Assembly (NCBI GenBank): GCA_902984215.1
Contig: CADWAF010004617.1
Coordinates: forward strand, 1-46,267
Origin: Willaertia magna
Lineage: Eukaryota; Heterolobosea; Eutetramitea; Acrasida; Naegleriidae
Direction of reading: 5' to 3'
DNA length: 46,267 bases
This document shows positions 12,247 to 41,096 of this stretch, one piece after another. The notes under the pieces were generated by a model. That model did not search any database, was not told the origin of the DNA, and worked only from the letters and a program-made list of their open reading frames with translations. Positions within the stretch are counted from its first letter, which is position 1. Every line of letters starts with the position of its first letter. A program made the translations under genes and the position numbers.

Positions 12247-12765
12247 TTAATATTTTGACCATTTAAGAGTATTATCCTTAACACATGAACATGCATTGTT
12301 TTGTTGATCTTTATAAGCTCCACAACCAGCTACAAGTACTGCGACACTAAACAAAGCTGCAACACCTAAACAACTTTCTCTTTTAACTAAATTTTTAATT
12401 TGTTTACATTTAGTCTTAATACATGAACTTAAATTTAAATCGCAATTAGTTTTAGTTCCATCACAATCAGCATAACAAATATCATGATTGTTGCAACAAT
12501 TTGTGAATCCATAATAATCTGAAATTGGGTTAAGTTCACCGCTCCATCCACACCCTGTTGGTTTTACATGAAAATCTGGATTGGCTTTACGGGTTTCTCC
12601 CTTCTTACAGATCTTACAAGTAAATAATGATAAATTAACTGGTTTATTAGTAGTCATTAACTGTTTATCATCTAATCTTGGGAAAGATGTCACTGATTGA
12701 GCAATGATTGAAAATGGTTGAAGGAAAAGAAGAATGGCAAACAAAAAACAAAAAATTGTCTTCAT
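12247..12765 (-). CDS. Secreted phospholipase A2-like protein
   Basis: This 172-aa protein has a clear signal peptide (1-22, MKTIFCFLFAILLFLQPFSIIA). A cysteine-rich PLA2-type core has GCGW at 71-74 in the calcium-loop position and the active-site helix CCNNHDICYADC at 90-101, with His94 and Asp95 as the expected catalytic dyad start. About 14 cysteines after the signal suggest several disulfides. Secreted PLA2 enzymes cleave the sn-2 ester of phospholipids with calcium. The short calcium loop and the paired CxxC near residue 50 are unlike classical pancreatic types and nearer to group XII or other protist-type PLA2, but subgroup is not firm. A second hydrophobic stretch at about 134-149 is unusual for a secreted PLA2. 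Likely secreted or lysosomal/phagosomal. No intron. Confidence 0.78.
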   Translation of the reverse strand: MKTIFCFLFAILLFLQPFSIIAQSVTSFPRLDDKQLMTTNKPVNLSLFTCKICKKGETRKANPDFHVKPTGCGWSGELNPISDYYGFTNCCNNHDICYADCDGTKTNCDLNLSSCIKTKCKQIKNLVKRESCLGVAALFSVAVLVAGCGAYKDQQNNACSCVKDNTLKWSKY

Positions 12766-24070: not shown

Positions 24071-24257
24071 ATAAGTTGTTGTTGGGGAAAAGTTTATTTT
24101 TTAAACTTAAAAAAAATACGAATAAACGTAGAGGGCTATAACTCTAGTCAAAGGCTGCAAATAATTTCTTTCTTGTTGAAAATAATTTCTAAAGACGATT
24201 AAATATAATATTGGCAGCTAATATTAATTTTCTTTAATAGTGTATATAAAAGACATA

Positions 24258-27200
24258 ATGTTGAATACAGATGATTTGGAGTCCTTGAAATCAGGATCCA
24301 CTAAGAGTTCAATATCTTCACTTTCTTCTTTAGATTCATACCCAAACCAAAATATATTTTCAAATAACGATGAGGATAAAAGTAGTGTGAGAGTAGTTGT
24401 AAGAGTAAGACCTCTATTAGAATCCGAGCATCAATCATGTATAATGGTAGACCAACAATCCAAACGCACATTGCAAATACGTCCAAATTCTAAAGAAAAG
24501 CCAAAATTATTTACTTTCGACTTTGTTGCTAGTCCACAATCAACGCAAAAAGAAATGTTTGAATATTGTGGTAAGCCAATAGTAGACAGTTGTTTAGCTG
24601 GATATAATGGAACCGTTTTTTGTTACGGTCAAACTAGTAGCGGTAAAACATTTACGTAAGTTTCACCATTTCAACTTTATTAACTTTATAACTTTGTCAA
24701 TTAGAATGGGAACAACGTTTAATGATGTTGAGGAAGATCATTTCTTTCATTTACCTCCATCTGCTGGTTTAATACCTAGAGTTATATATTATTTATTCCA
24801 CGAAATGGAAAGAAAGAAACAAGAAACGAATATAAAATTCGTTTGTAAATGTTCATTCTTAGAAATTTATAATGAAAAGATATCAGATTTACTTGATGAC
24901 AATATAAGTACTACTATTTCTACGTTTAGTGGTAATACAATAACAAAAAGTTTAAATTTGAGGGAAGATATAAAGAATGGAGTTTATGTTGAAGATTTAT
25001 CTCAAGAAGATATTCTAACACCAAAGGAAGCTTTAGACTTATTAAGAAAAGGTGTTGCAAATAGACATATCGCTGCAACAGCAGCCAACCCTGAAAGCTC
25101 TCGTTCTCACTCTGTATTTACTATTTTAATTCAATCACAAGAAGTTTCTGAGAGTGGAGTTCAAAAGACTAGGACATCCAGGCTAAACTTAATTGATTTA
25201 GCTGGTAGTGAAAGACAGTCATCAACAAATGCAGAGGGTGATAGATTAAAAGAGGCTTGTATGATAAATAAATCACTTTCAACTCTAGGTAAAGTGATAA
25301 AGGATTTAGTTGATGTAGCAAATGGAATTCAGAGACACGTTCAATACAGAGACAGTAAACTAACATATCTTTTAAAAGATTCTTTGGGAGGTAATAGTAA
25401 GACTTGTATAATTGCTAATGTAAGCCCTGCTTTACAATCTTCTTCAGAAACTGTTTCTACTTTAAAATTTGCGCAAAGAGCAAAGAAAATCAAAAACGAG
25501 GCAAAGATTAACGAAGAGACTTTTGGTAGTGTTCCAGTTCTTCAAGAGCAAATTAGAATACTAAGAAGACAACTCAACGAAGCTAACAGAAAATTAATGG
25601 AAAAAGACTTCCAGCCAAACAATCAAAATATTGAAGTAATTCCAAACAATGGGCAAACAATAACACTGCAAGAATCTGATGAGAAAGAACAATATATTCA
25701 AGAATTACACAAACAACATTTATTTGTAGCGTCACAATTTGACGAGGAAGAGGAAAAATCTGCCAAGCTACGAGAGCAAATGAAATCTCTTTATAGTGCA
25801 ATTGACGCAAAAGAATATTTATTAAGGTGTACTAGATTCTTTTTAAAGATAAGAGAATGCAGAATTGCAAGACTTCAACAAAAATCACCAAAGTTTGCCT
25901 TTGACAAAGAAATTTCTCCAATTAAGAATTCACGTGGAAATGGTGATGCAATGCATGATGAAGAATTTTTTACTCCTGTATCAGGACAAGATTTTGATTT
26001 TGAGAAACATCAAAAAGAGTTTGATGTCAACTATGATGAGTTTTCTCTTGAAAACGAGGAACAGTGGTTGTCAAAAGCCGAGGCTCTTTTCCAAAAAGCG
26101 TTGTCCCCTGAGCAACATCCAGATGTTATTACTTTAAAAATCGAAAATATGGAGCTAAAACAACAATTAGAGGATTATGAATCTCAATTTGGTGACGAAT
26201 ATATTAGAAGTAAAAATAATTATTCAAAATTAAAAGAATACACCAGTAGCTTAGAGAAAACAATTAAGCATTTAACTGCTGACAAAGAGAAATTACTAGC
26301 GAAATGTAAGGGATTAGAAACTGATAATAATAGGAGAGCCTCAATACTTCTCCAGTCTACAGTTAGTAATACAAAGGAAAATGAGCAATTATTGGAAGAA
26401 ATAACGTCTCTCGAGTTGAAAAATGAAGAGCTACAAGAAACTGTTGCTACCCTGAAGAAAGAATTGGAGGTGTTACAAGAAAGTGAACAAAACGCTTGGC
26501 AACAAGTAGAGAGTGCCAAGCAGCTAGTAGATGAGATAGCAGAAGAAAAGGAATCATTTGCAAGACTATTCAAAGAATCTGAGGAACAAAGAAAAGAAGT
26601 TTTACAAATTATTGACGATATAGAAAATCAACAAGCAACACAAAGACAAAAGGAAGAAGAATTAATTGTAAAAGAAGAGCTCATGAAGGAAAAAGAAGTT
26701 AGCTACTTAAAACAACTAGAAGACACTCAACAACAGCTAGAAACTCTTGTATTCAGGGAAAGTGAATTGACTGAAATCCTTAGAAACAAACAACTTGCCG
26801 AGGAAGCTTCAATTAATGAAAATGACCAATTAAAACAACATTTGAATAACAAGAATAATGAATTGGATGTATTGATGAACAACTTCAGAGAAAAAGAGAC
26901 ACAATTTAGTAATTTGTTAAAGCAAAAAGATACAGAAATTGAAAATTTAAAGCGCTCTGTTGATGAACTAAGCAGAGTTGTTGAAGACCTTAAAGTAAAA
27001 GGTCAAGAGCTTATCCATGAAAAACAAAATGAACTTGAAGATACTGCTTCTAACCTTAGCTCTCAAATCACACAATTAAGTAATCAAGTTAACGATTACA
27101 AAAACTCTATTGAAGAAAGAGATAGAACAATAGAGTCTCTTAATACCAAGTATAATAACGAAATTCAAGAGCATGAATCTACAAGAAAGATTTTGTGTAC

Positions 27201-30054
27201 TCTTCAAGAAGAATTGAATACGTTCAAGTCCAAAGAACAAAATTTACTTACATCTTTACAAAGTAAAGAGTATAGTCTTGAGGAATTACAAAAAGAACAT
27301 GTTGAAACAAAACAAAGGTTAAGTGTGACAGAGCAACAAATAAGCGAAAAGAATAACGATTTCATTCAACAACAAATTGACTTAGAACAAAAGATAGAAG
27401 AACTAAATCAAGAAGTACAGTTTATGAAATCTAAAGAGAAAGATTTAACAGACGACCTCGAGCATAAAACGAAAGCCTGTGATGAGTTAACAAAACTAAA
27501 GGAACAAATTGAAACTCAACTTAAAGAAAAAGAAATATTATGGCAAGAAAAAGAAGATGACTACCAAAAATTGGTCGAAGAAATGAACTTCCAATTAAAA
27601 GAATCAAAGTCAAAAGTTGACGAACTTTCTTCTTTAATTGAAGAACAACAATCAACCATGGAGCGAAAAATTGAATCCCAAATTCTACACATAGAGAAGC
27701 TTAAAGGAGAAATGGAAGAAAAAGAGAATGAGTTGAAGAACTTGTTTACCCTTTATGAAACAGCGAACAACAGTCTCCAAGATAGTAACCAACGTATTGA
27801 AGAACTTGAACACTCCTTATTAAAGGAAAAATCTTTCAGTAAGACAAAAGAAAATGAAGTTGAGCAACTAAAGAAGCAATTAGATAAATTTGAACTAGAA
27901 AATGAAAATTTATTTAATGATTTGAGAAATGCTACTATAAAAGTAGATGAGTTAAATAATGAGCTTAATAATGTTCAAAAAGAGTACTCACAATTTAAAT
28001 CAAACCACGAAGATACTTTGAATAGGTTAAAGAAAAAGGCAGCTGATGAGCAACAAAGAAATGATGAATTAATGCAAGTTATAAACTCTATGGGAAGCTC
28101 AGGCGAAGAAGAAAAACAACAATTAATAGAAAGAGAAAATAAATACAAAGAGCAAACAGCAACAGAAATAGCTTCATTAAAAGAGGATGTAGAGGTGTTA
28201 ACTTTAAAGTTGGAAGAAACATTACAAGATAATGAAACATTAGTTGGTGGAATCGAAGAGTTGAAGCAAAAACATGCTAGTGAATTACAAGAAACCAATC
28301 AACTAAAGGAAGCACTAGAAAATGAATTATCCAAGGCAAATGAAAGCATTACTTCTCTCAAAGAAGAGATACAATCATTACATAAGAAACTTAATGAGGC
28401 TATCTCTAATGAAGAAGTCGCTAACAAAATAAAAGAGGCAGAGTTGGAGAATTTGAGCAATGAAATTAACAAGTTAAAGGAGCTTTTGACTTTGTCAAAT
28501 AGCAAATGTAATGACCTAGAACTTGCCATAGATAGTCAAAAAGAGACTTATTCTAAACTAGAATCAAGATTAAATGATGAAAAAAAAGATTTTAATTTAG
28601 AAAAAGAAAAGCTTAATTCATTTCTAATTGAAAAAGACAAAACATTGAACAAAGTGACTAAAGAAAAATCTGATTTGATGGAAGAGTTGAATCTTATTAA
28701 ACTTTCTTTGAATGCTAAAGATACTGAAATATTAGAGCTTACTGAACTTGCTGAAGAAAGTATAAGTAAACTAAAGATCGCAGAGGATGAAATACTTGAA
28801 AAGGACAATAAGATAGGGAGTTTAGGTGAATTGCATGAAAGTGCAATTAAAAACATCCAAACACTTACTGCTGAGATTGAGGAATATAAGAAAAATGGAA
28901 CTGTTCTTTCTGAAGAGAATTCTACTTTAAAGGCTCAACTATGTGAAATTAAGGATGAATTACTGAAAAAGACTGAAGAAATTGAGAAACAAAAATCAAC
29001 AATTCAAAAATTATCCTCAGGAGAAGAAGTATTAAAATTCAAACAAGAAATGACAGTTTTAGATAAGAAAGTAGAAAGGTTAGAAAACGAATTACAATCA
29101 GAAAGAGACCTACTTTTCACAAAAGAAAACCAACTTAACTCTTTGAGACTTGAGCAAGATCAAAACAAACAAAAGATTTCTGATTTAGAAAAAGAACTTT
29201 TATCACAACAAATTGCCTCTGAAGAAAACGTGCAAAAATTAAAGGAGGAGTATGAACAAAAAGAAACAGAGCTAAACTCTGCTATTGAAAAACTGAAATT
29301 AGAACTCAAAGAAAGTGAGACTGATGTCACTCAACTAAGAGAAGAAGTTGAATCATTACGTAAAGACAATGAAAAACTAATTGGCCACAACAATCACAAA
29401 CAAAAGATCCAATATCAAATGAAAATCAAACAAGAAAATAATGATCTAAAAGAAGAATTACATAAAATCCAAAAGTTACTTTTAGAAAAAGAAACATACA
29501 TTAAGAAACTGAAAACCCAAGTTGATGTAGAGAAACTAGTTTCTCCAACAAATCCTGTTGCCCCTAATCCTTTTGCCTCAACAAAGCCAGTTCAACCTAT
29601 TGGTCCTATTGGTCCTAATCCATTCTCCTCCAGTACAAATACCTCCTTACTAGGATCTCCTCTTAAAGATAAAACTAGAGTTTCTGTTTATTCCAGAAGA
29701 CAAAGTATGGGTGGAAGAAAGTTATTAGATGCTAATACCAATACCAATCAACAACCTAAGCCAGTCAAAAACAAGCCAACTAATTTAACTTTACCGAACA
29801 CTACAGTAGACAAGGAAAATCAACCAGAAGACCTTCAAACACCACTAAGCGCTCAAGTTCTTTTTGGAAATAATAGAAAGAGAAGAAACAATCCAGTTGC
29901 TACAACAACAACTACGACAGAAACAAAAAAGGTAAAACCAACAGAGAATGTGCCATCAAATACTAATAACACCAATAATAATTCCACAATTTTTTCTAAC
30001 ACAACAAGTGGTGAAGAGCCCAACGAAAGAAGAATGTCCTTTCGTTTAAGGTAA
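24258..30054 (+). CDS. Kinesin-12 family motor (KIF15-like)
   Basis: Two exons, 24258-24655 and 24705-30054, are joined over a 49-nt intron whose removal restores GKTFTMGT; the product is 1915 aa. The upstream frame begins with GTG, so the ATG at 24258 is used. The motor domain runs from about residue 44 to 400, with P-loop GQTSSGKT near 124, switch I NPESSRSHSVF and switch II LIDLAGSERQ. The motor is N-terminal. The neck-proximal stretch LKFAQRAKKIKNEAKINEET and VDVANGIQRHVQYRDSKLTY match kinesin-12. About 1350 residues of near-continuous coiled coil follow, then a basic Pro/Asn-rich tail ending RRMSFRLR. Kinesin-12 motors crosslink spindle or phragmoplast microtubules. It is longer than human KIF15 (1388 aa) because of extra coiled coil. 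Confidence 0.88.
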
Positions 30055-35352: not shown

Positions 35353-36180
35353 ATGCAAAGCAAGAGAGGGGGACTAATAGACAATAGTAATAACAATACG
35401 ATTAGTAATAATCAACAGCAGGGATTGGTGATACCAACACCCAATATATCTTATGAATGTTTGGATGACTTGTTGGAAAGAGGAGCTAATACCAATCAAA
35501 TAGCACAATCCTACTTTAATATGGATGGTTCATCATCCTTTTCTAATTCACAACAATCATGGCATGCACATCAACAACAATTATTTTGCACGCCAACAAA
35601 TATGAATGTACCATTGTCATCTACAACACCAATTAACAATAATATCGTACTATCCCCGATAACTGAGGAAAGTTTTAATAGTAATGATCCATTACAAAAA
35701 GTTTTTATTGTTGAAGAAAGTTTAGAGGAGTTACTTAGAGAGGGAAAAGAGAGAGAACTACAAACAGTTAATCAATTCATTAATAATAATTACGTTAGTA
35801 ACAATAATTTTAGTGGTAGTTACACGAGTACTATTGGATTTACACCTGTTGCTATCCAACAAACTCCTCCAACAACTACAACCTATCAATCACAAACATC
35901 AACTTCCAGCACTTTCTCATCTCCTTTATCAATTAGTGATTTAGAAGAAAGTATTGAAAGTAATTCTACAACTATTACCGAGGAGAGACCTAGTAGCACT
36001 TCTTCCTCAACTGTCAAACAAAAGAAAAAACGACAAAAGAACAAAAAATCATCTGTAGATTCTTCTTCTGAAAAAGGTCAACTTGAAGTACCACCTCACC
36101 CAAGAAGAAAAACTCAGTTATGGGATAAGAACATGTTTCACTTCCCCTATCAAGCTCAATCTTCTAGTAAGAAACAGTAA
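35353..36180 (+). CDS. Disordered Asn/Ser/Thr-rich protein, unknown
   Basis: This 275-aa protein has no recognised domain. It is mostly low-complexity Asn/Gln/Ser/Thr. Two short similar acidic segments stand out: SYECLDDLLERGANTNQ (about 33-49) and VEESLEELLREGKERE, both with a LDDLL/LEELL-type amphipathic core, and a third, ISDLEESIE, is related. The C-terminus is basic (KQKKKRQKNKKS) and ends HPRRKTQLWDKNMFHFPYQ, whose aromatic-rich end may be a docking motif. The repeated short amphipathic motifs plus a nuclear-localisation-like cluster are compatible with a transcriptional or RNA-binding adaptor; this is inference. The gene is intronless and converges on the RT-like gene. Confidence 0.6.
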   Translation: MQSKRGGLIDNSNNNTISNNQQQGLVIPTPNISYECLDDLLERGANTNQIAQSYFNMDGSSSFSNSQQSWHAHQQQLFCTPTNMNVPLSSTTPINNNIVLSPITEESFNSNDPLQKVFIVEESLEELLREGKERELQTVNQFINNNYVSNNNFSGSYTSTIGFTPVAIQQTPPTTTTYQSQTSTSSTFSSPLSISDLEESIESNSTTITEERPSSTSSSTVKQKKKRQKNKKSSVDSSSEKGQLEVPPHPRRKTQLWDKNMFHFPYQAQSSSKKQ

Positions 36181-36286: not shown

Positions 36287-37864
36287 TTAGTGTGACTGAA
36301 GTTTCATACTGTAAAGTTTTTCTGCTACCGAAGAAGAGAAATACCTTACGTAACAGCTGTCTTTTATAGAACGAATGAAGGCAAGACGCTCCCAGTAATT
36401 CATCTCTTCTTTGTACTCCTTTAATTGATACAATTCCTTCTTACTATTTGACAACAATAGTATTACCTCTGGAGCATACACTTCTTTGGCAGTAATTGAT
36501 GACAGTAATCCTTGGGTTAATTGGTCAGATATTTTGATTCCTTTTTCAAACAGATAATTCAATATTAGTAATTTGAGGAACCCATTGTTTCCATTAACAG
36601 ATTTCAGTACTCCTAATAGACAATCATTGATGGCTGTATTTTCTTCAATAGTTGGGGTCTTTACGAGTTTGAAATAAAGTATTACATCTTTGAAGACAGA
36701 AAAGCATTTAGAATCCTTGCAACTTTCCAAAATACTGTTAAGAACGGATTTATCTTGGAATTTACCGAGCCAATTCAAACAGAACCTAACTAAAGGTTCA
36801 TCAATAACCTCAAGCTTTAATTGTTCTAGCAATACCAAATTTACACCAATACTTTTGATTTGACTTACGACTGGTGTCAAAGTGGTTTTCTCATACTCGC
36901 ATTTTTCATAGTTAATGAGAGGGCGAAGCAACGAGCCGAGTTTTGAGGAAAGACTTCCATCATTTTCTTGCGAGAAAAGTTTTTGTTTTAGGACTGATAA
37001 CTTTGCAATAGTAGTCTTCTGTGACGTGCAACCTGTAACCAACTGTATTTGTTTAAACAAAGATTGAAAGGTAGAGTGGGCATCTTCCGAGGTTTTACAG
37101 AAGGCTCTAAAACTGTCGTTAAATCGGGTGTATATAATGTTTGCATCAGTAAAACTCATGTAGACATCAACTCCAGTCATAATTAAATCTAATAGAATTC
37201 TATTAGCAACAGTTTCAATTGGGATACCATTCTCACAACTTTCAAAGGATTGGAAGAATTGTTTCAATATCTTAGCCTCAGGTTGTAAACCTCTATGATG
37301 AATGGCTTCCTCAAGTTTAGCAAGGGATAGAGACTCCAAAAAGTCAGGGATTTCCATGCAAACTACATAAGGATACTCTTTTTCATCGACATCCTTGGTA
37401 AAGTCTTGAAAGTCTTTGAAGGCATGGTTGGGAACGAAAAATCGACCATCAGACCCATCAAATTGATAAGAAAACACTTTATGAGGTTTATCAAGTATAT
37501 ATTCTCCTCTATTTGCCTCTAAATCCTTTCCAATCTTATGCATTAAGGCTGTAAACAGAATGGTATCTATTGGATTCATCTTGGTTACTTTTCTAAAGCT
37601 AAAGTTTGGACCAGGAATAAGGAAAGATCTGCCTTCTCTCTTCCATGTAACCCATTCAATTAAGTTTACCAGTTCTAACCAATTTTGAACTGAGCTAGCC
37701 TCATTAGGCATTACGTTATCCTTTACTAGTGTATTTTCATCCCAGTATTGAAATATTGCATCAAAAACCTCTGTTGCTAAGAAAATATCTGTATTTCCGA
37801 ACTTCTTAAGATGATCTCTTGCGAATATTAAATCACTTGTTGGTAAAGAAAAAACCTCTTTCAT
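36287..37864 (-). CDS. Reverse-transcriptase-like protein of bacterial Abi/UG (DRT) type
   Basis: This 525-aa intact ORF carries, in order, the landmarks of bacterial antiviral/unknown-group RTs. These are KKFGNTDIF near 20-28, FRKVTKMNPIDTILFTAL (90-106, fingers), VFSYQF (130-135), motif A YVVCMEIPDFLESL (166-179), motif B NGIPIETVANRILLDLIMTG (212-231), motif C YTRFNDSFRAFCKTSEDA (245-262), and SQKTTI near 281-286 matching the K-T thumb-edge motif. Residues about 290-525 are helical, as in the alpha-repeat C-termini of AbiK-like RTs, with a final YWERLAFIRSI. The usual motif A Asp is Glu171, and YxDD reads FNDS (Asp250, Ser251), so polymerase activity is doubtful. No integrase, endonuclease or LTR is present. 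It starts 70 bp after DIS3's stop on the same strand. An in-frame TGA precedes the ATG. Confidence 0.75.
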   Translation of the reverse strand: MKEVFSLPTSDLIFARDHLKKFGNTDIFLATEVFDAIFQYWDENTLVKDNVMPNEASSVQNWLELVNLIEWVTWKREGRSFLIPGPNFSFRKVTKMNPIDTILFTALMHKIGKDLEANRGEYILDKPHKVFSYQFDGSDGRFFVPNHAFKDFQDFTKDVDEKEYPYVVCMEIPDFLESLSLAKLEEAIHHRGLQPEAKILKQFFQSFESCENGIPIETVANRILLDLIMTGVDVYMSFTDANIIYTRFNDSFRAFCKTSEDAHSTFQSLFKQIQLVTGCTSQKTTIAKLSVLKQKLFSQENDGSLSSKLGSLLRPLINYEKCEYEKTTLTPVVSQIKSIGVNLVLLEQLKLEVIDEPLVRFCLNWLGKFQDKSVLNSILESCKDSKCFSVFKDVILYFKLVKTPTIEENTAINDCLLGVLKSVNGNNGFLKLLILNYLFEKGIKISDQLTQGLLSSITAKEVYAPEVILLLSNSKKELYQLKEYKEEMNYWERLAFIRSIKDSCYVRYFSSSVAEKLYSMKLQSH

Positions 37865-37934
37865 GCTTACTCACTTTTTTTTTGCTTGTAGATCCGCAGC
37901 GAAAGGGCAAAATTTTACATTTCTAAAAATGGGT

Positions 37935-40900
37935 TTATTTTTTAACTTGTTTTAATTTTTTCATTAATTTGTCCTTGGTTCTCTTTCTCTTTAAATCATT
38001 ATCTGTTTGACTTACAACACTATCTATTGTGACAGAAGATGCTCCACTATTATTTGTTGATGTTATTTCTTCTATTGTTGTTGTGCTTTCTTGTTTGTCT
38101 TGTTTTTCGCTCTTCTTCAACAAATGGAATGGGAATTCTGGATCTAATTTCATTACATTTGGTTCAATAATTTCAATACACAACTTTCTTCTATAATTCT
38201 TTGCAGTTTTAACAAATATTCTGACATGTAATGATTGGAACATTGTAACTTGTACTTTTTGTTTACCGAAAGGAATTATTAAACTATCGGTTTTTTCTTG
38301 ATATTCAAATTTACCATTCACCGTATTTTCATTATTTAAATATATCACATGTTCAAAACCATATTTTGGAATAAATACTACAACAGCATTATCTCTTATA
38401 TCAACTACATAACAAGTAACGTGATCTACAGGATTAATATTGAAATAAATATTTGTAAATAATTCAACTGAACTTCTTTGGGAGTATTGTGCAAATCTAT
38501 TTCTTCTATTTAAATTTTGCATCAATCTTCTTGAATATTCTCTGTCAGTCAACTTTGGTGTTAAAGGATAAATACCAATTGCTGCTCCTAAAAGTCTGTG
38601 AACAATAACATCAGCATATCTACGAATAGGAGAAGTAAAGTGAGTGTAAATTGGTACAGCTAAACCATAATGCCAATATTCATTGGATGAGACATCACCT
38701 GAAATGAAATAAACAGCTTGTTCCATACATCGGGTTACTAGAATACGTACTAATGTATTTAAGTAAGGGTCACCACTTTTCTTGGTCATTTCTTCAATTA
38801 CCTCTAAGGAATCATTAAGTGTTTTGGATGAAGTAATATCTAAATCCATTCCATGTTTTCTCAGTACTTTTAATAATGGTTCAAATCGTTTTGGATCTGG
38901 GCTTGGGTGACGACGCAAACAAGCAACCATAGGGAATTCCTTTACAATCTTCTTTGCCACTGCAATATTTGCCAATAACATAAACTCCTCAACCATTGAG
39001 TTTGTTTCTCTTAATTGATATAATTCAACATCTGTTGGATTACTGGATTCGGTTTCCATATAAAATTTAACAGCAGGAGATGCTAATGTTAAAGAACCTG
39101 ATTCAAATCTTCTTTCTTTTAATATTCTTGATATCTTCAGTAATAATCTTAAATCAGTTGCTAATTCATCGTCGCGTGCCTTATCATCTATAATAACTTG
39201 AGCTTGTTCATAAGTTAATGATCTTCTTGAACGAATAACTGATTTAAAGTAATCTACACTTAACATATCTCCCTTTTCATTGAATTTCCATACAACAGAA
39301 AATGCTAAACGATCTACATTTTCTCTTAATGAACAGATTTGGTTCGTTAATAAACTTGGTAACATTTCAATTCTTCTATCAACTAAATAGACAGTTGTGC
39401 CTCTTTTTGCTGCCTCAATATCTATCATTGTACCTTCCTTTACGAAATGTGTGACATCAGCAATGTGTACACCTATTTCAATAGTACCATCTGGAAATTG
39501 TATAGCATGAAGAGCATCATCAATATCTGTACAACCTGGAGGATCTACACTTACAATATTTAAATGTCTTAAATCTCTACGATGTTCCATATCCTTAGCT
39601 TCAACTTCCCAAGTTCTATTTGGTAAACATTCCATGATAGCTTGAGAGAATTGATAATGAGGAACGTCATGTTCTAATAAAATTACTTTAGATTCAGCAT
39701 CTTTATCATATATTTCACCAATTGTACTAACATAGTGGCCATCTGGATACTTAGATGAGGCATCCCACGAATCTATGGTAACTGATATACGCTTATTAAT
39801 TAATTCCTTTACTTGTCTAGTTAATATTCTAATCTTAGGAATACTTCTATCAACTGGAACAAAAAGTACCTTGTTAGCACCATCATTAAGTTCAGTTTCT
39901 TCATCTAAACTACCACAATATGTTTTCCAATTTCTTTTAATAATACCAACAATTTTACCAGTTGGAATTAAATCTTTACCTTCAAATCTTCTATAAAATG
40001 ATTTACTGTCACCATCTTTGTCACCATTATTTTCTCCAGTTAATTCTTCGTCTTCTAACATATCGTTACTTAATGCACTTTTTGAAGGAGCTGCCCATTG
40101 AGTTTTCGGTAACATTTCTACAGCACAAATATCTCCATTAAGCGCTCTATTTAAATGTTTAAAGTTTTGAATTAAAATTGTATCATAAACCTCAATAGAA
40201 GTATTACTTTCAACATCTGTATTTGAAATATCTTCTGGTTGAACACCCAATTCCTTTAAATCAACACCTAATTCCAATAAATTATTCTTTAGTACCACAT
40301 AACCTTCATTAATATTATTTCTATTAATTCTAAGTCTACCTTGAAAATACTTTTTCATCTTAATCTTCCTTAAACAAGTAGTTAAAGGAACATGTTCTTC
40401 AAATAATAAATTCTTCTTTGCCATCTTACCTCCTTCAGGTAAATCTCTATCTCCTTCAAGTAATTCTTCCCTTGATAATTCATCTGAATAATTTAAGAAA
40501 TCCAATAATTCAATTGGAAAACTATAATACCCTTCTATAAAACCATTATTTAATTCTTTTACATTTTCTTTAATAAATTCATGAATTGTTTTCGCATTAA
40601 CTTCCATTTCTTTAGCTTTTCTTAAATTTTCTTTATCATTTGTTAATAAATAAATTATTTTACTTTCCGAAAGTTTTCTCATATACCAAAGTGTAGCAAC
40701 ACGTATCGCTCTATCATTTCTATCATTTATTGATTCTGATGGTTGTCTCTCTCCTATATATGTTTCTTTATGGTGTTCATTTGAAAATAAATAAAAATGT
40801 TTTCCTTTATCGTCTATTAATGTTCTTACTCTATTATAAACACTTTGATTTTGGTTTTTAACTTCATCCAATACTGTCTCTAATAAAATTACATTTTTAA

Positions 40901-41096
40901 TTGATTCATGTTCTAATACCGTTATTTGATGTAATACTACATTAGTATCTGGTATTATATAACACGGTACATCTTCCTCTAGTACTTTACCGATACCTGT
41001 ACCTATATCATCTCTTAAATAATGTTCCCGAACAACTTTGATAACATTTCCTTTCTTTGTTCTTTTAACAAAAGATTTACTACTTTTTAGAGACAT
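37935..41096 (-). CDS. DIS3: Exosome ribonuclease DIS3/RRP44
   Basis: The frame starts at a TTG, but the ATG at 41096 after AAAAAA is used, giving 1053 aa. The N-terminal PIN endonuclease domain (about 45-215) has IIPDTNVVL with Asp50 and LLTNDKENLRKA. Two cold-shock domains follow. The RNB exonuclease domain has VDPPGCTDIDDAL with Asp518, Asp524, Asp526 and Asp527 in the metal site, and later YWHYGLAVPIYTHFTSPIRR. An S1 domain and a basic, Lys-rich tail complete it. DIS3 is the processive 3'-5' exonuclease and endonuclease of the RNA exosome in nucleus and cytoplasm. All catalytic acids are present in both domains, and length and order match the family. The gene is intronless. Confidence 0.95.
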   Translation of the reverse strand: MSLKSSKSFVKRTKKGNVIKVVREHYLRDDIGTGIGKVLEEDVPCYIIPDTNVVLHQITVLEHESIKNVILLETVLDEVKNQNQSVYNRVRTLIDDKGKHFYLFSNEHHKETYIGERQPSESINDRNDRAIRVATLWYMRKLSESKIIYLLTNDKENLRKAKEMEVNAKTIHEFIKENVKELNNGFIEGYYSFPIELLDFLNYSDELSREELLEGDRDLPEGGKMAKKNLLFEEHVPLTTCLRKIKMKKYFQGRLRINRNNINEGYVVLKNNLLELGVDLKELGVQPEDISNTDVESNTSIEVYDTILIQNFKHLNRALNGDICAVEMLPKTQWAAPSKSALSNDMLEDEELTGENNGDKDGDSKSFYRRFEGKDLIPTGKIVGIIKRNWKTYCGSLDEETELNDGANKVLFVPVDRSIPKIRILTRQVKELINKRISVTIDSWDASSKYPDGHYVSTIGEIYDKDAESKVILLEHDVPHYQFSQAIMECLPNRTWEVEAKDMEHRRDLRHLNIVSVDPPGCTDIDDALHAIQFPDGTIEIGVHIADVTHFVKEGTMIDIEAAKRGTTVYLVDRRIEMLPSLLTNQICSLRENVDRLAFSVVWKFNEKGDMLSVDYFKSVIRSRRSLTYEQAQVIIDDKARDDELATDLRLLLKISRILKERRFESGSLTLASPAVKFYMETESSNPTDVELYQLRETNSMVEEFMLLANIAVAKKIVKEFPMVACLRRHPSPDPKRFEPLLKVLRKHGMDLDITSSKTLNDSLEVIEEMTKKSGDPYLNTLVRILVTRCMEQAVYFISGDVSSNEYWHYGLAVPIYTHFTSPIRRYADVIVHRLLGAAIGIYPLTPKLTDREYSRRLMQNLNRRNRFAQYSQRSSVELFTNIYFNINPVDHVTCYVVDIRDNAVVVFIPKYGFEHVIYLNNENTVNGKFEYQEKTDSLIIPFGKQKVQVTMFQSLHVRIFVKTAKNYRRKLCIEIIEPNVMKLDPEFPFHLLKKSEKQDKQESTTTIEEITSTNNSGASSVTIDSVVSQTDNDLKRKRTKDKLMKKLKQVKK

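Follow-up and report, generated by a model that had tools for sequence, protein, structure and literature searches.

We describe here a reverse transcriptase (RT) gene of bacterial antiviral type in the heterolobosean amoeba Willaertia magna, in which two catalytic residues differ from those of all its sampled relatives. With moderate confidence we read it as a DRT8-type antiviral RT that came whole from a bacterium, as a system of a single gene, and in which DNA synthesis would have been lost or strongly weakened. The window, that is the whole stretch of DNA analysed, is an entire contig of 46,267 bases (CADWAF010004617.1, our C761) in a 19.24-Mb assembly of 894 contigs (GCA_902984215.1). The gene lies on the reverse strand at 36287..37864, where it runs from ATG to TAA as an intact frame of 525 amino acids that needs no intron; a stop-free run of 525 codons has a chance of ~2.6e-18 at the base composition of the open reading frame (ORF) itself. 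Its product falls into an RT half of fingers and palm (residues 1-300; 36965..37864, reverse strand) and a helical-repeat half of the class-1 alphaRep-like kind (residues 301-525; 36290..36964, reverse strand), each supported by a match to the DRT8 profile and by the predicted fold. The initial annotation had read the blocks of an antiviral-type RT in their proper order, and our alignment with DRT8 relatives (A1) agrees: the N-terminal FGNTDIF pairs with GDTDIF, the fingers block FRKVTKMNPIDTILFTAL with FRISTQLDPLDTIIFTAL, VFSYQF with FSYRF, motif B NGIPIETVANRILLD with YGIPVGQxASRLLAEL, and QKT of the K-T block with QQHKT. Palm motifs A and C are likewise found where that annotation had placed them; they are, however, degenerate (MEIPDF vs ADIADF, and FNDS vs YVDD or similar).

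The assignment to DRT8, which we take to be equal to UG7, is carried by profile comparison. The PADLOC Drt8 profile (PDLC03783) covers residues 10-499 of the amoeba protein over profile positions 5-460 of 493 with an E value of 1.4e-60 and 204.1 bits, while the second-best PADLOC family reaches 60.6 bits. Drt8 was the best family for 10 of the 10 relatives scanned, and the proportion of the Drt8 score to that of the second family equals that of the amoeba protein in 8/8 of the scanned relatives belonging to groups A and B of the tree described below. Each half of the protein also matches when taken alone, the RT half with 153.6 bits to a profile built from 104 relatives (window excluded) and the helical half with 58.7 bits to the DRT8 profile, where 300 shuffles reach at most 7.9. 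A Pfam search of the protein returned no family at E <= 10, with no RT or TERT match; a PD-(D/E)XK domain, which a passage of PMC12596737 ascribes to DRT8, had no Pfam match in the window protein nor in 5/5 other Drt8 proteins (E <= 0.01). The AlphaFold2 model, at a mean predicted local distance difference test score (pLDDT) of 83, carries an RT fold followed by all-helical residues 301-525, and in Foldseek it aligns over 366-440 residues, through both halves, with DRT6, DRT4, Abi-P2, AbiA, AbiK and UG15, at query template-modelling scores of 0.38-0.56 and identities of 11-15%. The trait by which class-1 UG/Abi enzymes are defined, the fusion of an RT to a domain of alpha-helical HEAT-like repeats (PMC13174585, in part), is present in the model and in the two-half alignments. 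The profile search and the structure prediction that the initial annotation had proposed as checks thus both favour it: its Abi/UG/DRT family is sustained and narrowed to DRT8, and the AbiK-like helical C-terminal half that it had claimed is supported by the predicted fold and the half-wise profile match.

The catalytic centre is where the amoeba protein departs from this family. In motif A, codon 171 (37352..37354, reverse strand) specifies Glu, and in motif C codons 250-251 (37112..37117, reverse strand) specify Asp-Ser, giving in the alignment a triad of E..DS vs D..DD in 159/159 DRT8 relatives. Those relatives comprise 120 proteins (of 793 matches), 30 ORFs from genomic loci (one on a viral contig) and 9 sequences from genome searches; all that carry organism names are bacterial, and the rows include at least four identical pairs, one sequence trimmed to 530 residues (L077) and one whose start is shortened (L018). 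The codon for Ser251, AGT, lies at least two base changes away from any Asp codon. Also lost are G217 (fixed in 159/159) and Y180 (155/159), while R91, R119, G213, P215, R247 and K283 (159/159 each) are kept. Across 104 rows, 67 positions are at least 98% fixed and the amoeba protein keeps 32 of them, distributed as 11/15 in the fingers, 2/9 around motif A, 3/8 around motif B, 3/4 in motif C, 4/10 in motifs D-E, 7/15 in the helical half and 2/6 at the N-terminus. The changed active centre is a new fact and is the reason to call the gene a DRT8 variant; the replaced aspartates were overlooked in the initial annotation, and on the alignment they change the likely mechanism of the protein. Canonical DNA synthesis is likely to have been lost or strongly weakened, because only one of the three aspartates of the catalytic triad is left. 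With a triad of E..DS where every relative has D..DD, we class the gene as a degenerate DRT8 homologue rather than as a working DRT8.

The protein might nonetheless be a DNA polymerase that primes itself and is still active, its metal site being of an unusual E..DS type; the untemplated DNA that it made upon infection would block or kill the infected amoeba as bacterial DRTs do. The first Asp of motif C, a carboxylate in motif A, the GIP of motif B, the Arg of the fingers and the Lys of motif D are all kept, and the class-1 DRTs studied to date synthesise DNA without a nucleic-acid template or a partner (PMC13174585, in part). We regard this as unlikely, given that neither triad change is tolerated in any relative (0/159), that G217 and Y180 are gone as well, and that AbiA is killed by a single Asp change, D240N having abolished both labelling and phage defence (PMC11077055, in the part consulted). 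A protein in which synthesis is lost or much weakened is the reading that we carry forward.

The codon usage of the gene sets it apart from its host. Among 52 host ORFs of at least 200 codons, taken from eight stretches, it has the lowest codon fit and the second highest third-position GC (0.324), the top value (0.338) belonging to an ORF beside a long interspersed nuclear element (LINE) and the next ones to LINE ORFs. This usage fits a foreign gene that has yet to assimilate. In a protein database search that scored the 7,996 candidates with the most words in common, E <= 1 was reached only by the RT protein itself and by one further sequence (P0002); of the 793 relatives of P0002, 120 were listed, and those of the 120 that carry organism names are bacterial; distant eukaryotic relatives may be missed, because only those 7,996 word-sharing candidates were scored. 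A bacterial gene that arrived recently and is now unused and decaying, the altered centre being its first step of decay, would account for the unassimilated codons, the lost catalytic residues and the lack of an orthologue in this word-limited search. Such decay is also improbable, and we rank it behind an active polymerase: the 525-codon frame is intact against the chance given above, both halves still match the DRT8 profile, and nearly fixed positions are kept (32/67), although these three traits could partly come from a donor outside our sample. On the preferred reading of a retained but non-synthesising protein we would call the gene domesticated, as the initial annotation did.

The neighbours of the gene are those of the host. 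Upstream on the same strand, 70 bp from the RT start, lies DIS3/RRP44 (37935..41096, reverse strand), and 106 bp beyond the other end is a convergent, low-complexity ORF (35353..36180, forward strand); the flanking by DIS3 and ordinary eukaryotic genes described in the initial annotation is what the contig contains. The DIS3 of the window shares 63% identity with its counterparts in Naegleria fowleri and N. gruberi, a pair that is 75% identical, and in a quick tree of 21 rows it branches beside Naegleria with a Shimodaira-Hasegawa-like approximate likelihood ratio test (SH-aLRT) support of 100; by DIS3 identity and tree, the host is closely related to Naegleria. In the protein database RT and DIS3 each have an entry whose contig measures 230,919 bases, which suggests one longer contig and speaks against a chimeric join, although the same data may simply have been built a second time. 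A chimeric contig or contamination by bacterial DNA, to which an otherwise bacterial family and the atypical codon usage might point, is very improbable in view of these entries, of host-like genes at 70 and 106 bp on either side, and of a closest bacterial relative only ~30% identical over its length. The 70-bp gap that separates the end of DIS3 from the RT gene on the same strand (37865-37934) has a G+C of 0.357, and a transcript common to both genes is possible. Elsewhere in the window we noted, by eye, a small secreted-looking, phospholipase A2-like protein (12247-12765, reverse strand) and a long coiled-coil, CENP-E-like kinesin (24228-30054, forward strand) in two frames, the break at ~24,600 being probably an intron.

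A search of the genome with the Drt8 profile found one copy of the RT gene and two further matches, on C492 (E 5.1e-5) and C274 (E 2.2e-4), which we rejected as paralogues since by reading they are of LINE type (SYADD motif, RNase H-like ORF). Both elements (L004 83-1885 from C492; L005 1-2433 from C274) consist of an RT ORF with SYADD, further broken ORFs and the RNase H-like ORF, and their ORFs too have raised third-position GC. The RT gene has no repeat copies in the genome and no accompanying retroelement ORF beside it, which bears out the view of the initial annotation that it is a single gene free of retroelement parts. That a eukaryotic RT of LINE, telomerase, Penelope or Prp8 type has been mistaken for a bacterial one is barely credible, as the match reaching into the helical half is to DRT8, Pfam RT and TERT matches are absent and the LINE RTs of the same genome retain SYADD. 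In a 51-row tree with outgroups (its row L078 being a Drt8), the RT protein groups with DRT8 against UG9, UG14 and UG34 rows (94/92), but the tree does not separate a place inside the sampled DRT8 from one beside it. In a 71-row tree without outgroup, made from 40 of the 120 listed proteins and 30/33 locus ORFs (three short ones dropped), the RT protein falls inside group A (87/91, not starred). The gene was probably acquired from bacteria, the donor and the direction of transfer being what we infer because the named members of the family are bacterial and the codon usage is atypical.

Over its length the RT protein has no more than ~30% identity to any sequence recovered. The prokaryote genome search gave 32 loci, and among 395 genomes of a phylum other than that of Pseudomonas, 162 had a match to the Drt8 profile (E <= 0.001), 379 bits being reached by only 8 matches in 7 genomes; one Ignavibacteria genome (G004) holds two distant Drt8 genes (L012 3520-5088 and L061 1480-3081) of ~536 and ~396 bits. 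A viral carrier was considered and rejected, with no giant-virus route visible in the virus, phage and plasmid sets: IMG/VR yielded one contig by alignment search (L039, itself a Drt8) and none by protein search, phage records gave no match to the RT protein, and plasmids gave one match over 53% of it at 26.6% identity. Within 4.5 kb at 17 bacterial loci only the RT recurs, plus an ABC-ATPase-like cluster in three, and the 350-bp flanks of the bacterial loci are similar solely within the pairs L010/L014 and L017/L018, no covariance search having been made. One gene may therefore be the whole system, because no recurrent partner or flank element appears beyond that cluster and those two pairs. 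In a table of PMC10952713, DRT8 is associated with Cap17, an effector of PNP type; none was seen here, with no PNP profile run. One relative, L077 (301-2781, reverse strand), encodes an 827-residue Drt8-like protein with ~300 extra C-terminal residues, for which a Pfam scan returns RVT_1 and, in the extra C-terminus, a sub-threshold DUF3108-like match alone.

We propose the following model for the amoeba gene. A complete one-gene class-1 antiviral RT would have passed from a bacterium into the amoeba, where untemplated, protein-primed DNA synthesis of the kind performed by its studied class-1 relatives would cost a eukaryotic cell. Because of that cost, selection would favour a version that has given up catalysis and retains the RT fold, the helical half and the basic residues of the fingers. 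Prp8 has likewise retained an RT fold without synthesis. The three kept elements would together make up a binding surface for nucleic acid or for a partner, and the protein would serve in defence or regulation, for instance as a sensor or as a blocking factor against viruses or retroelements. Such a target is the natural guess because a giant virus of Naegleria is known (PMC11043551, in part). In DRT4, random single-stranded DNA becomes toxic once it is protected by a phage protein, and the mechanism of DRT8 itself has yet to be established, both according to a passage of PMC13213688. Carried to its full extent, the model would have a eukaryote adopt a complete bacterial class-1 antiviral RT, switch off its DNA synthesis and retain it for a non-catalytic role against viruses or retroelements, which would bring the DRT8 line its first member from a eukaryote; this we offer as a tentative and on balance doubtful possibility.

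Several observations weigh against the model at one step or another. Glu171 and Asp250 could yet hold metal ions and so sustain activity, and a role in defence would be presumed from family membership. The atypical codon usage could, at least in part, reflect low expression. The structural model with a pLDDT of 83 used relatives in its alignment, the single-sequence AlphaFold2 prediction being uninformative (pLDDT 35.9). No orthologue was found among the database proteins, including those of N. gruberi and N. fowleri, in the word-limited search, which leaves one sequence only. The donor was not found, P0001 having matched 4/369 genomes in the class of a Pseudomonas genome, and placement inside or beside the sampled DRT8 is not separated by the approximately unbiased (AU) test (p 0.44), the branch of the RT protein being very long.

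Were the model true, the gene would be a young test case for how eukaryotes tame a costly bacterial defence enzyme; no report of a class-1 DRT in a eukaryote was found among the matches listed from open-licence PMC papers. The amoeba gene resembles bacterial DRT8 in its length of ~520 residues, in the order of its blocks, in the profile match over residues 10-499 and in the union of an RT with a helical half, and differs in being eukaryotic, in being ~24-30% identical and in having E..DS for D..DD. DRT6, DRT4/UG15, Abi-P2, AbiA and AbiK share 11-15% identity with it and are active enzymes. TirBCD of Dictyostelium offers a parallel, being a bacterial antiphage immune gene that moved into an amoeba alone, without its operon, but it is an active TIR NADase with paralogues, whereas the Willaertia gene is a single-copy RT with an altered centre (PMC13142454, preprint, in the part consulted). 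TERT has been reported as kin of the class-2 UG RTs, a link to bacterial antiviral RTs (PMC12632851, preprint, in part). Telomerase and Prp8 are also RT folds in eukaryotic use, but are ancient and near-universal, whereas the amoeba gene is of class 1, is found here in one genome and is recent-looking by codon usage; if the model holds to its full extent, it would be a young parallel, confined to one lineage, to the ancient adoption of RT folds by telomerase and Prp8.
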